Assembly: GCF_027307225.1 (NCBI RefSeq)
Contig: NZ_DAHUXJ010000044.1
Location: 1 to 40,933, forward strand
Source: Bradyrhizobium sp.
Lineage (GTDB): Bacteria > Pseudomonadota > Alphaproteobacteria > Rhizobiales > Xanthobacteraceae
DNA length: 40,933 nt
Direction of reading: 5' to 3'
The position numbers were made by a program, and so were the translations under genes. Below are positions 9,189 to 40,933 of this stretch, one piece after another. Position 1 is the stretch's first letter, and every line of letters starts with the position of its first letter. The notes beneath the pieces are model-generated. The model did not search any database and was not told the origin of the DNA. It worked only from the letters and a program-made list of their open reading frames with translations.

Positions 9189-9355
9189 CTAGAACTCCGA
9201 CTCCGAAGTTCGCAAGCTATTGCGGCCCCGCCGATGCGAACTTCGGAATCAAAGGAGCTCTAGCAACTTACTGTTTTGAGTAGCGGCTTTGAATTTGAAG
9301 TTCCTATAACGAACTCACCTCGAAACTGATAGGAACTTCAAATTCGCCGCACTAG
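9189..9355. repeat. Paired palindrome unit 1 (hairpins C and B)
   Basis: Two palindromes separated by an AT-rich spacer of about 16 nt; total 167 bp. First hairpin 9189-9263 runs CTAGAACTCC...GGAGCTCTAG with inner arms CCGAAGTTCGC/GCGAACTTCGG. Second hairpin about 9280-9355 has arms AATTTGAAGTTCCTAT/ATAGGAACTTCAAATT and ends CGCACTAG. Its final CTAG is also the first CTAG of the next unit. Confidence 0.85.
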
Positions 9356-9521
9356 TGCCCACTTTCCGAAGTTCGTGCTCCATCGCAGCGCCCACCTTCA
9401 CGAACTTCGGAAAGTCATGGGCCCTAGCAAACTTATTGATTCTAGTACCGCTTTATCGATCTGAAGTCCCTGATCGAATTTCGCCGCTTGTGGTGCAGGG
9501 ACTTCAGATCGGCGGTACTAG
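9352..9521. repeat. Paired palindrome unit 2 (hairpins C and A)
   Basis: Hairpin 9352-9427 (CTAGTGCCC...GGGCCCTAG, inner arms TTTCCGAAGTTCGTG/CACGAACTTCGGAAA), a 14-nt AT-rich spacer (9428-9441), then hairpin 9442-9521 (CTAGTACCG...CGGTACTAG, inner arms GATCTGAAGTCCCTG and CAGGGACTTCAGATC). The loop of the second hairpin contains CCGCTTGTGGTGCAG, the reverse complement of the loop in the element at 38694. Confidence 0.85.
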
Positions 9522-9647
9522 TCTCGTTTGCTCACGAGAATGAGACGGGCAGTTTGATGGAAAGCTGTGCGTTGTCAGCGACGTTTCGCGTCCTAACCTT
9601 AAGGAGGCGTTGACGCGCCCAGGACAACTATCAGAACAACCATTCGG

Positions 9648-9890
9648 CTATTTTGCCTCGAATGGTATCGATCGGCCGGAAGCCGGCTCTCCCGTCCGGG
9701 GGCAGGACTTGCCTGATCCCGCCTGTCCGCAAGCCAGATCTTGTAAGCCAGGCTCGGCAGAATTGTACGAATTCCGGAATCGGGACGCGAGCGCATCGTC
9801 GCCGCGCGTACCTTCGGCAATCAGCAACGATGCCGCCACCAGGGTAGCCGCCACCAGCGCTGCCGTGACCAATGCCGTCGGAGACTTCAT
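9648..9890 (-). CDS. Small exported or membrane-anchored hypothetical
   Basis: 80 residues from an ATG with AAGGA about 4 nt upstream. The N-terminus is a hydrophobic Ala/Val/Leu segment (TALVTAALVAATLVAASLLI), which could be a signal peptide or a single membrane anchor, followed by a polar tail containing two Cys (LACGQAGSGKSC) that might form a disulfide. Not a family I recognise. Codon third positions are GC-rich, as in real genes here. Confidence 0.5.
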   Translation of the reverse strand: MKSPTALVTAALVAATLVAASLLIAEGTRGDDALASRFRNSYNSAEPGLQDLACGQAGSGKSCPRTGEPASGRSIPFEAK

Positions 9891-9969
9891 CACATCCTTG
9901 TCCGATCGCGATTCCAATCGTCGCGTAGGCCGCCGAAGCAAATGGCTCGAAAAATGGGGCTAAACCGAA

Positions 9970-10146
9970 ATGGGTATTGCCGCGTCGAGCTTGCTCGAAA
10001 GCACTGCGAGGGTGACCATCAGGCAAAGCGACCGCGAAGCGATGGCCAGCGAAGTCGCCACCGCGTCCCTCGGCCGCGTCGATGCGATGGCCATTGCCGA
10101 GCCACTAAAGCCGGCCGGGCTCAAAAACCGGATCATGGACGAATAA
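9970..10146 (+). CDS. Small hypothetical protein, 58 aa
   Basis: A short frame starting at ATG 9970 and ending at TAA 10144-10146. The product reads MGIAASSLLESTARVTIRQS, then a soluble mixed helix, ending LKNRIMDE. Its codons follow the GC-rich third-position bias of neighbouring genes, and the composition (acidic and basic residues evenly spread, few rare codons) looks protein-like. The opposite strand also has an open frame of similar length but with a less natural, Ser/Ala-only composition. No clear ribosome-binding site and no recognised family. Confidence 0.4.
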   Translation: MGIAASSLLESTARVTIRQSDREAMASEVATASLGRVDAMAIAEPLKPAGLKNRIMDE

Positions 10147-10303
10147 ATCCCTGTACGAACGGGCGAATCACTCCGCGCGGTGGGATTTTGTGACAATTTT
10201 CACCGGCAAGATTGCGGCGGGGCGGTCGTCAAAGCGGCAGAAATGCGGCGAAACGGGCCGTTATGCCCATGATCCCCGCAATTCGTCCCAGCTTTTGTGG
10301 ACC

Positions 10304-10960
10304 TTACGCCTCGGCGGCCGCCTGGTGGTCCGGCTCCAGCATTCTACCGACAGGCAGCCAGTCCATCGTCACGAATCCGTGGACTTGCTCGACCCGCTTC
10401 AGCCAGTCGCGGATCGCCGGAAAGGTCGAGAGGTCGTAGTCGCACTTCTCGGCGACATGGGTGTATCCGTAGAGTGCGATGTCGGCGATCGTGAACTGGC
10501 CTGCGGCGAAATAGTCGTGGGTCTTGAGGTGATTTTCCATGACCTGAAGTGCGGCATAGCCGCGCTCCATCCAGTCTTCCAGCGCATGCGTTTGCAGGTC
10601 GCGACCGCCTCTGACCAGCGCAAGCCAGAAATACGCCGCGCCGATGTTCGGCTCCAGCGCATGCTGTTCGAAGAACATCCATTGCAGCGCCTCTGCGCGC
10701 TCGACCGGCGACTCCGGTGCAAGCGATGTGCCGCGGGCGACATACCAGAGGATCGCATTGGACTCGGCGAGATAACGGCCGTCAGCAACCTCCAGTAAAG
10801 GAACCTGTCCGCTCGGATTCTTCGCGAGAAAGTCCGGCGTGCGGCTCTCGCCGCGCAGAATGTCGATCTCGATTGCGCGATAGGGGGCGTTGAGCAGAGC
10901 AAGCGCAAGGCGAACCTTGTAGCTGTTGCCCGAGCGCTGCATGGAATAGAGATTGTACAT
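10304..10960 (-). CDS. Glutathione S-transferase family protein
   Basis: 218 residues with both GST domains: thioredoxin-like N-terminus (MYNLYSMQRSGNSYKVRLAL, cis-Pro loop at PSGQVPLLEV, glutathione-binding motif ESNAIL) and helical C-terminus (AAGQFTIADIALYGYTHVAE, the conserved helix-6 Asp). Probable cytoplasmic conjugation or peroxide/disulfide reduction; substrate unknown. It is a paralogue of the interrupted GST gene at 27060-27817 and shows what that gene's middle should look like (GYAALQVMENHL across the break point). Start at ATG 10960; the frame continues upstream through a half palindromic element but the GST fold begins here. Confidence 0.9.
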   Translation of the reverse strand: MYNLYSMQRSGNSYKVRLALALLNAPYRAIEIDILRGESRTPDFLAKNPSGQVPLLEVADGRYLAESNAILWYVARGTSLAPESPVERAEALQWMFFEQHALEPNIGAAYFWLALVRGGRDLQTHALEDWMERGYAALQVMENHLKTHDYFAAGQFTIADIALYGYTHVAEKCDYDLSTFPAIRDWLKRVEQVHGFVTMDWLPVGRMLEPDHQAAAEA

Positions 10961-39480: not shown

Positions 39481-39774
39481 TCAGGCAGCCTTGTCATCCG
39501 CCTTGGCGGCGGGAGCGGCCGGCTGGGGCGCGCGCGGGCGGCGCGGCAGGGGGAAGTCCTTGCTTTCATAGAGCGAGCGAATGCCCATCTGGTCGAAGCG
39601 AGCCTCGTCGACCTGAAGATAAGCGCCGTTCAGCGAGTCCGCCGGCAATTCCTCGATCGCAAAACGAACCGCTTCAGCCGCCGTGCCAAATCGCCGATAG
39701 GCGAAGCCCGCCCGCTTTTTCTTGCGGATGGCGGCTGGAAATAGTTCGGCAGCAGTGTTGAAGCTGAAAGCCAT
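39481..39774 (-). CDS. Small conserved hypothetical protein
   Basis: 97 residues. Starts AFSFNTAAELFPAAIRKKKR, then GFAYRRFGTAAEAVRFAIEE, LNGAYLQVDEARFDQMGIRS and a Pro/Ala-rich tail (PLPRRPRAPQPAAPAAKADD). The first 75 residues look like a compact alpha/beta fold. Not a family I can name. AGAGG lies about 9 nt before the ATG. The 220 nt between this gene and DUF3309 show no gene. Confidence 0.7.
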   Translation of the reverse strand: MAFSFNTAAELFPAAIRKKKRAGFAYRRFGTAAEAVRFAIEELPADSLNGAYLQVDEARFDQMGIRSLYESKDFPLPRRPRAPQPAAPAAKADDKAA

Positions 39775-39997
39775 GATCGGGGACCTCTGTTCTTTTTAGT
39801 GAGAACGCGATCGAAATCGCGAACAGATCGCACGGGCGCAAAAATCAGGCGGCGCCGGTGCACGTCATTTCCTTGTGGACAGACCTTAATATAAGCCTCT
39901 CCACAGGAATTGCGACTCCCGTCGGGCTGAATGATGAATCCGTCACCCGCAGGAGTAGTTCATAAAAAAGCCGTTTAATTTCAGTTGCTTATATGAC

Positions 39998-40162
39998 TTA
40001 CAGCTTGCCGAGTAGTAGCAGGACGAGCAATACAACCAAAACCACCCCGCCGAGCCCCATTCCGGAGTGGCCGTAGCCGTAACCATAGCCGCCGATCCGG
40101 CCGCTCCAGCCGCCCAGGAGATAAATGATCACGAGAATGATGAGGATCGTTCCAAGCGTCAT
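39998..40162 (-). CDS. DUF3309 small membrane protein
   Basis: 54 residues: MTLGTILIILVIIYLLGGW, a Gly/Tyr-rich middle (GRIGGYGYGYGHSGMGLGGV) and a second hydrophobic helix (VLVVLLVLLLLGKL). This is the DUF3309 pattern, a short two-helix inner-membrane family of unknown function. ATG 40162 has a strong ribosome-binding site (GGGAGGAG) 6 nt upstream; a longer upstream frame is not needed. Confidence 0.85.
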   Translation of the reverse strand: MTLGTILIILVIIYLLGGWSGRIGGYGYGYGHSGMGLGGVVLVVLLVLLLLGKL

Positions 40163-40357
40163 GGCGCTCCTCCCACTGGCTACGCGCCCGGCCCGATGAA
40201 TTCCGCCAGGCTGCCAGTAGAAAACAGCATATTGGCCTCGCTGGTTCCGGCAGCGGAACCCGAAATTGCATGGGCAGCGCTCCTCACGGCGACGAAAAAC
40301 CCGCGCGACCGGGTCGTGGGCGCGGGGCACGAAAAGCGCTCGAAGCAAGGTGAGGAA

Positions 40358-40768
40358 TTATTTCGGCTGGAGTTTCAACGCCGCCGAATTGATGCAATAG
40401 CGCAGTCCGTTTGGCGCGGGGCCATCCTCGAAGACATGGCCGAGATGGCCGTTGCAGCGCGAGCAAAGCACCTCCGTGCGGATCATGCCGTGGCTGACGT
40501 CGCGTTCCTCGTCGACATGGCTTTCGGCCGATGGCTGGGTGAAGCTCGGCCAGCCACAGCCGGAGTCGAACTTGGCGTCGGACTCAAACAGCGTCTGACC
40601 GCATCCGGCGCAGATATAAGTGCCCTGCCGCTTCTCATGTTCGTATTCGCCTGAGAAAGGCCGTTCGGTCGCCTTCTCGCGCAGCACCGCATACTGCATC
40701 GGCGTCAGGTCCTTGCGCCATTCGGCTTCGCTCTTTTCGACCTTCGGCGTCGTCTTGGCGTCAGACAT
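40358..40768 (-). CDS. msrB: Peptide-methionine (R)-S-oxide reductase
   Basis: 136 residues. Reduces the R epimer of methionine sulfoxide in proteins. Two zinc-binding CxxC pairs (CAGC and CSRC), the FDSGCGWPSFTQPS block, catalytic histidines and Arg in HLGHVFEDGPAPNGLRYC and the catalytic Cys in RYCINSAALKL. No signal peptide, so cytoplasmic. GGGAGG precedes the ATG. A palindromic unit starts 26 nt upstream of the start codon. Confidence 0.95.
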   Translation of the reverse strand: MSDAKTTPKVEKSEAEWRKDLTPMQYAVLREKATERPFSGEYEHEKRQGTYICAGCGQTLFESDAKFDSGCGWPSFTQPSAESHVDEERDVSHGMIRTEVLCSRCNGHLGHVFEDGPAPNGLRYCINSAALKLQPK

Positions 40769-40793
40769 GAAACCTCCCGTGCAATATCACCCG

Positions 40794-40933
40794 ACTAGTG
40801 CGGTGAATTTGAAGTTCCTATCAGTTTCGCGGCAACCTCGTCATAGGAACTTCAAATTCTAAACCGCACTAGAATCATATAATTGGCTAGTGCTCCTTTG
40901 ATTCCGAAGTTCGTAAACGTGGAGCCGCAATAT
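40794..40933. repeat. Paired palindrome unit 8, cut by window end
   Basis: Hairpin 40794-40872 (CTAGTGCGG...CCGCACTAG; inner arms GAATTTGAAGTTCCTAT and ATAGGAACTTCAAATTC), 14-nt spacer AATCATATAATTGG, then the left arm of a type C hairpin from 40887 (CTAGTGCTCC, CCGAAGTTCG) continuing past the window. Confidence 0.88.

Follow-up and report, generated by a model that had tools for sequence, protein, structure and literature searches.

Organization of the repeat units in the window

The stretch analysed here (the window) comprises the 40,933 bp of contig NZ_DAHUXJ010000044.1 of Bradyrhizobium sp. (assembly GCF_027307225.1, hereafter the source genome), along which a unit of about 165 bp formed by two hairpins is dispersed. 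Seven complete units and an eighth one cut by the end of the window had been proposed in a sequence-only reading of this DNA, and all of them were recovered, within a few bases of the places given there, when hairpins were delimited with a covariance model:

9189..9355, + strand: unit 1, hairpins 9189-9263 and 9280-9355; core GAAGTTC; right CTAG common with unit 2
9352..9521, + strand: unit 2, hairpins 9352-9427 and 9442-9521; cores GAAGTTC and GAAGTCC
21448..21613, + strand: unit 3, hairpins 21448-21523 and 21536-21613; core ACATTCG
27458..27625, - strand: unit 4, hairpins 27458-27536 and 27550-27625; core ACATTCG; R type leads on the + strand
34408..34575, + strand: unit 5, hairpins 34408-34483 and 34497-34575; core ACATTCG; outer CTAG decayed
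34626..34792, + strand: unit 6, hairpins 34626-34701 and 34715-34792; cores ACATTTG and ACATTCG
38694..38862, - strand: unit 7, hairpins 38694-38772 and 38787-38862; core GAAGTTC; R type leads on the + strand (by eye)
40795..40933, - strand: unit 8, cut at the window (contig) end, hairpin 40795-40872 and partial hairpin 40887-40933; core GAAGTTC; R first (by eye)

The eight window units follow a single plan, each with two hairpins of 74-80 nucleotides (nt), termed left (L) and right (R). Read inward, a hairpin runs from CTAGTGX (X being one base) through three variable bases and an inner arm with the core box to a loop of ~20 nt, which often contains TTGCMGC, and returns through the inner arm, a bulge and the outer arm to CACTAG. 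The inner box of the palindrome approximates RAMRTTYG, and the bulge, usually of 3-5 nt, lies on the spacer side; as the L and R hairpins face one another, both bulges adjoin the spacer. When a strict hairpin detector was applied to the source-genome sample and to 111 named loci, both bulges pointed toward the spacer in 96 of 102 pairs, with units spanning 161-171 bp, while a one-sided bulge of 3-5 nt was displayed by 357 of 372 hairpins. The spacer consensus, drawn from the 82 of 110 oriented units that have a 13-nt spacer, is CAA..T.ATGATT; orientation was set by the CAA and ATT at its ends, so that those six bases are conserved partly by construction, which does not apply to the inner T and G positions.

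Both core sequences distinguished in the sequence-only reading, GAAGTTC and ACATTCG, are indeed found, together with the further variants GAAGTCC, GACGTTCC and ACATTTG. Its statement that the two hairpins of a unit always share a core holds for 106 of 110 units, one of the others being clearly mixed and three having an arm left unclassified by the regular expression used. Base X is common to L and R in 108 of the 110.

Copy number and pairing in the source genome

The source genome (5,595,619 bases in 160 contigs) contains 506 hairpins of the GAAGTTC..GAACTTC type and 290 of the ACATTCG..CGAATGT type, versus 3 and 0, respectively, for reversed-pattern controls, as well as 493 matches to CTAGTG-N(55-72)-CACTAG (27 for the control), and exact-core hairpins lie at several contig ends of the assembly. 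With the strict detector, 372 hairpins were found in 1,512,521 bases of partly overlapping loci and none in 541,075 bases of single-base shuffles.

A covariance model, whose construction the sequence-only reading had recommended, was built from 51 diverse hairpins and searched against 429,854 bases of the source genome; 17 of the 51 came from this sample itself, and its contigs were picked from listings of exact-core matches, which makes it somewhat biased. The 122 hairpins detected resolve into 56 pairs and 10 unpaired ones, with 55 pairs inverted and a single direct one, and with a gap between partners of 13-14 nt in 44 of the 56 (range 11-27). The paired unit is thus real, 112 of the 122 hairpins being paired, and the earlier concern that hairpins might occur mostly singly is not borne out. 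The density amounts to one pair per 7.7 kb, or ~2.2% of the sample, and would by extrapolation correspond to ~700 units in the whole source genome. Nine adjacent hairpins overlap and are read as neighbouring units with one common CTAG, as at positions 9352-9355.

Whole-genome searches with the model, in which up to 150 candidates were scored for each genome and which yield matches and not hairpins, as a palindrome may match on both strands, returned at least 150 matches in the source genome, 108 in genome G101, 59 in G111, 35 in G010 and 18 in G109, and none in G026 and G030. As a separate observation, an IS200-like insertion sequence (IS) at L031:1183-1480 of the source genome abuts the truncated right end of a unit, into which it possibly inserted.

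Insertion at CTAG

The unit is a mobile element, since relatives carry four-base empty sites at its insertions. In the congener G010 (9.5 Mb), a BLAST search with one unit as query returned seven full copies that are 99-100% identical, and no half copies of this young unit elsewhere in that genome. At three insertions (two in G010, one in a Martelella plasmid) the place of the unit is taken in aligned relatives by four bases; the filled site is CTAG-unit-CTAG and, of the nine congener rows aligned, four have exactly CTAG as the empty site. For G010 site 2 the four bases are CTAG in three of five relatives and CTAA in two, while site 1, where the left flank is ragged, has TCAG in two of four relatives and CTAG and TTAG in one each (relatives L291-L293 were left out of the G010 alignment). 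In the Martelella plasmid NZ_CP054860 a group II intron reverse-transcriptase gene is split by the unit, which measures 169 bp with both CTAGs counted, and all four aligned relatives have 4 nt there (TCAG in three, TCAA in one; relative L089 was left out). Regarding window units 1 and 2, G045 matches on both sides, with intergenic flanks too diverged to place the junction. No palindromic target wider than CTAG appeared in the flanks of 95 units.

A full repeat pair with CTAG at its bounds is present in every hairpin, and 10 of the 122 sampled hairpins are single (some of the singles at contig ends or beside a decayed partner), as would be expected if each 77-bp hairpin were a mini-transposon and units arose by two insertions beside a favoured spacer. 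This is nonetheless very unlikely, considering that (i) the spacer is nearly constant in length and conserved in sequence, (ii) the seven G010 copies are all whole units, and (iii) two singles (L044:10012-10082 and G111:C15:326335-326409) look, by eye, like an L 5' half fused to an R 3' half, as if left over from a deletion between core repeats.

Relationship to the ends of IS630 elements

Insertion at TA within CTAG suggested an IS630 element, a transposon for which a 1991 paper, by its title, reportedly describes preferential insertion at the TA of CTAG, and ten genomes were therefore searched for PF13358, with matches in seven. IS ends were located without using the unit sequence, either as TA..TA inverted repeats around DDE_3 genes or as TAG..CTA around genes similar to that of locus L328, the latter form presuming a TAG start. 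The IS630 ends thus obtained fall into clades. One of them, from the same genus, comprises elements of 1.15-1.21 kb with open frames of ~360-395 codons that start with CTAGTGTCCTGAACCAGAAGTTCGCA, CTAGTGTTCTGTCACTGACATTTGAA or CTAGTGGATCGAATCTAACACTTGG, sit in CTAG, carry a single repeat copy at each end and fit the unit arms in register. The two members scored against NF033545 IS630 (cut-off 100), transposases L308 and L328, reached 278 and 275 bits, respectively, and 81 and 78 bits against PF13358.

In all, of the 34 IS ends, which come from 17 distinct elements, 24 agree with a unit arm at no fewer than 17 of 27 bases, while 84 of 86 control CTAG sites score at most 16 and the remaining two, read as unit arms, score 27. 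For twelve ends chosen from the 34, belonging to six elements in which both ends begin with CTAGTG (L342, L344, L346, L347, L348, L354, L360 and L363-L366 being omitted), 17-22 of the 25 bases after CTAGTG match, versus 8-15 at background sites. These latter are the 102 lower-scoring members of a bimodal control of 148 sites, the other 46 scoring 16 or more (19 of them at 16-22, within the range of the IS ends) and being taken, on the basis of the 25 top rows, for unit arms or additional IS ends; this control was used in place of an earlier one that contained undetected unit arms (~2% of 981 sites). The twelve IS ends are single, with no inverted inner copy (10-13 of 26 bases), whereas the 110 units are doubled (21-26 of 26), so each unit holds four copies of an IS630-like terminal repeat around its ~13-nt spacer. 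Ends of the TAGAGCG and TAGTAGC clades of IS630 do not match the units (9-11 of 22).

G010 holds L328 and L324, both IS630 elements with related ends. Among 59 congeners, three or more CTAGTG hairpins occur in 9 of the 41 with an L328 match (E value up to 0.001, any identity) versus 0 of the 18 without (p = 0.028; Mann-Whitney p = 0.026). The sequence-only reading had advised looking for a transposase gene between such double hairpins, and none turned up: no L..gene..R arrangement occurs among neighbours less than 3.5 kb apart at the 111 named loci, a search short of a whole-genome scan, nor does G010 have half copies of its young unit, and what was found instead are IS630 elements with single, undoubled arms. 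The idea that L and R arms mirror the two ends of an IS, hinted at by eye for L328, is not put forward, as best identities do not separate L from R.

The asymmetric inverted hairpin pair, the conserved spacer and the hundreds of copies also recall REPINs, that is, inverted pairs of repetitive extragenic palindromic (REP) sequences spread by REP-associated tyrosine transposases (RAYTs, Y1 HUH enzymes) acting on single-stranded hairpins, and the source genome has two RAYT-like genes (L034:1354-1917, 187 aa; L035:1414-1968, 184 aa). The likeness indicated in the sequence-only reading extends to the layout (55 of 56 pairs inverted) and not to membership. No PF01797 candidate was detected in G010 despite its seven near-identical units, PF01797 matches occur in 55 of 120 genomes that do not include G101, G111, G109 and G100, and no hairpin of the unit family lies in either RAYT-like locus (3.3 kb each). 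Neither are the units short tagged repeats, REPs being 20-40 bp long with GTAG or CGTC tags in the part of the published account cited here (PMC3733652). Movement by a RAYT is hence extremely improbable, and a RAYT or IS200 mobiliser was rejected as a general requirement, given that G010 lacks a Y1 transposase.

Covariation between hairpin arms

Across 51 hairpins, 22 of 26 paired positions change on both sides, and 97.4% of the cells pair, compared with 74.6% in shuffles and 38-39% when partners are slid by one column; the slid control leans toward structure and the shuffle ignores relatedness. Both-side changes account for 312 cells; among the 1,325 cells, just 17 hold a G-U or U-G pair and 35 no pair. 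Shuffling partners between units lowers arm identity from 96% to 73-74%. The hairpin sets were chosen by a detector demanding paired arms, so that selection accounts in part for how much they pair and less for the compensatory changes, and that detector counted Watson-Crick matches only, which biases it against G-U. The scarcity of G-U pairs along with the changes on both sides leads to pairing being read as kept at the DNA level, and this could occur through binding of two molecules, folding, or templated correction between arms. The covarying arms, together with the constant plan, the conserved asymmetry and spacing, and the empty sites, sustain the proposal of the sequence-only reading that these are copies of one evolving element type and not unrelated palindromes.

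The nearly exclusive Watson-Crick covariation is unlike that expected for a selected RNA, and no Rfam family reaches its gathering score on the units, weak matches to miRNA models below cut-off being seen in 34350-34850. It is therefore doubtful, and in our estimation improbable, that the hairpins function at the transcript level (as 3'-end stabilisers, terminators or RNase III sites) and that copies are retained for this reason, even though predicted folding energies range from -74 to -92 kcal/mol (seven complete units with 10-nt flanks). Two plasmid units (L081:3001-3170 and L084:3001-3083) adjoin genes for substrate-binding proteins of ATP-binding cassette (ABC) transporters, and REP-type hairpins set expression ratios in ABC-transporter operons. 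Moreover, CTAG provides the stop codon of a frame of at least 100 codons at 46 of 87 units (53%) versus 140 of 373 other CTAG sites (38%), an excess that may reflect target preference or selection.

Distribution among other genomes

The pattern CTAGTG-N(55-72)-CACTAG has some match in 42 of 120 relatives, mostly one to six and up to 20 outside the source genome, some of these matches being plainly not hairpins. Among GTDB species genomes, at least 111 stretches contain CTAGTGGTCC..GGACCACTAG. By title, the carriers among the matches listed belong to Hyphomicrobiales, Sphingomonadales and other Alphaproteobacteria, and include Nitrobacter, Afipia, Mesorhizobium, Phyllobacterium, Agrobacterium vitis, Rhodoplanes, Methylocystis and Stappia, as well as Sphingobium, Sphingomonas, Novosphingobium, Rhodospirillaceae and Hyphomonadaceae; three metagenome-assembled genomes titled 'Marinimicrobia', also among the matches listed, may be misnamed or misbinned. 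Unit 6 was matched in seven plasmid records from Aminobacter, Martelella, Rhizobium, Ochrobactrum, Bradyrhizobium and Agrobacterium, with coverage of at least 80% in one, and unit 1, of the GAAGTTC type, gave no match against plasmids. One viral contig matches the hairpin pattern, on the basis of the pattern alone.

Proposed mechanism

We consider it quite probable that the ~165-bp unit is a non-autonomous mobile element, integrating at CTAG and mobilised in trans by IS630 (Tc1/mariner) transposases. The units are short (161-171 bp), dispersed in many copies (56 pairs) and devoid of a transposase gene, they insert at TA within CTAG with target duplication, as seen at the three four-base empty sites, and their terminal repeats match an autonomous IS630 element, albeit not one of the same genome. 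The design of a miniature inverted-repeat transposable element (MITE), suggested in the sequence-only reading, is thereby supported in kind. Because their arms resemble single terminal repeats of one IS630 clade, the units look like IS630-type MITEs with ends doubled into palindromes, and end similarity, target and a weak co-occurrence make the link with IS630 likely.

A transposase encoded elsewhere would bind the outermost repeats of both halves, excise the unit and join it into the TA of another CTAG. Binding by one enzyme at both ends would account for X and the core class being common to the two halves, their agreement between L and R being as expected in that case. The doubled palindromic end might be kept either since two enzyme molecules bind it or since it folds as DNA, and L and R might stay unlike so that the whole unit avoids becoming one long unstable hairpin.

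Several observations weigh against mobilisation by IS630: (i) only two PF13358 matches occur in the source genome, with no more than 28% identity to L328, so that the mobiliser there is either missing, extinct, hidden or unassembled, or of another clade, and several of the hairpins listed there are identical in core and loop despite the lack of a close IS630; (ii) G111, G109 and G100 carry units and yet, among the ten genomes searched, have no PF13358 match; (iii) none of the IS630 ends observed in G010 coincides exactly with those of its young units, not all 17 matches having yielded ends; (iv) ends of the CTAGTACCC clade are intermediate, at best 14-18 of 27 bases and partly above background, which renders the similarity graded; (v) the co-occurrence with L328 weakens to p = 0.08 and 0.09 at thresholds of one or two hairpins, and the statistic ignores phylogeny; (vi) at G010 site 2 the left flank of the CTAG row L289 does not align, and as CTAG is palindromic a 2-bp TA duplication is indistinguishable from a 4-bp CTAG one; and (vii) identity between the arms of a hairpin (97%) far exceeds that between the outer ends of L and R (70%), an excess not needed for ordinary recognition of double-stranded terminal repeats alone.

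A variant of this mechanism that we regard as rather unlikely is a Tc1/mariner-type parasite with ends that are read in folded form, the extruded bulged hairpin being recognised by the transposase or by a replication-fork host factor. In such a case the arms must stay complementary while following the drifting specificity of successive IS630 transposases across Alphaproteobacteria.

If moved by IS630 transposases, the unit would be a new and unusually symmetrical design of parasitic mini-transposon, which would account for a repeat that fills ~2% of the sampled source genome, lies at several contig ends and recurs across Alphaproteobacteria. Its four terminal repeats, covarying inside a hairpin and agreeing between hairpins, would constitute a natural record of transposase recognition, and a testable case of whether DNA folding, beyond sequence alone, is selected at transposon ends.

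Other palindromes and RNA features

Strong palindromes outside the unit family lie at 14645-14694, 29466-29504 and 11367-11398 of the window, perhaps belonging to other REP families or being terminators. The GAAGTTCCTAT..ATAGGAACTTC hairpin arms of the source genome equal 11 bp of the yeast FRT arm, an identity treated as coincidence. The only Rfam family at gathering score in the window is the serC leader RNA at 28231-28283 (RF00517, 64.8 bits). Finally, the region 19984-20068 holds an exact core of Br-REP1, CCGGAATCTCGAGATTCCGG, at 20049, with a long palindrome adjoining at 19984-20021; Br-REP1 of B. japonicum has flanking palindromes according to the cited part of PMC5082802.

Comparison with known systems

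No description of a double-hairpin CTAG unit was found in the literature searched, a scope outside which subscription literature and ISfinder lie. RIME1 of Rhizobium, from a 1995 paper, is reportedly an element of 108 bp with two large palindromes, similar in this respect to the unit and different from it in length.

In the cited portions of the respective sources, REPINs, including Bradyrhizobium families, share with the units their being inverted hairpin dimers, often heterodimers, intergenic and in many copies, and differ in having REP stems of 5-13 bp (PMC3733652), while units have 26 paired positions, CTAG ends and no need for Y1. Br-REP1 and Br-REP2 of Bradyrhizobium japonicum are likewise palindromic intergenic repeats, of Bradyrhizobium and Rhodopseudomonas, of other sequences, such as CCGGAATCTCGAGATTCCGG, and with no paired 165-bp unit or CTAG end described in the text cited (PMC5082802). 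The Correia or NEMIS elements of Neisseria resemble the units as small mobile repeats with stem-loop transcripts, and differ in that RNase III processing is proposed for them and no doubled-end plan is given for them in the text cited (PMC2229807).

The IS630 and ISY100 elements, of the Tc1/mariner type, duplicate TA upon insertion, and their transposase alone binds the terminal repeats and moves the element, according to the cited part of PMC2170065; by contrast, the units lack a transposase of their own, and their ends are doubled and palindromic. The nearest precedent found is RUP of Streptococcus pneumoniae with IS630-Spn1. Like the units, RUP is short and non-autonomous, with terminal repeats matching those of an IS630 element; it is a MITE of 107 bp in 108 copies that targets TA and is also found inserted within other IS elements, and neither a plan of two palindromes with four terminal repeats nor covarying arms are described for it in the text cited (PMC2229807).

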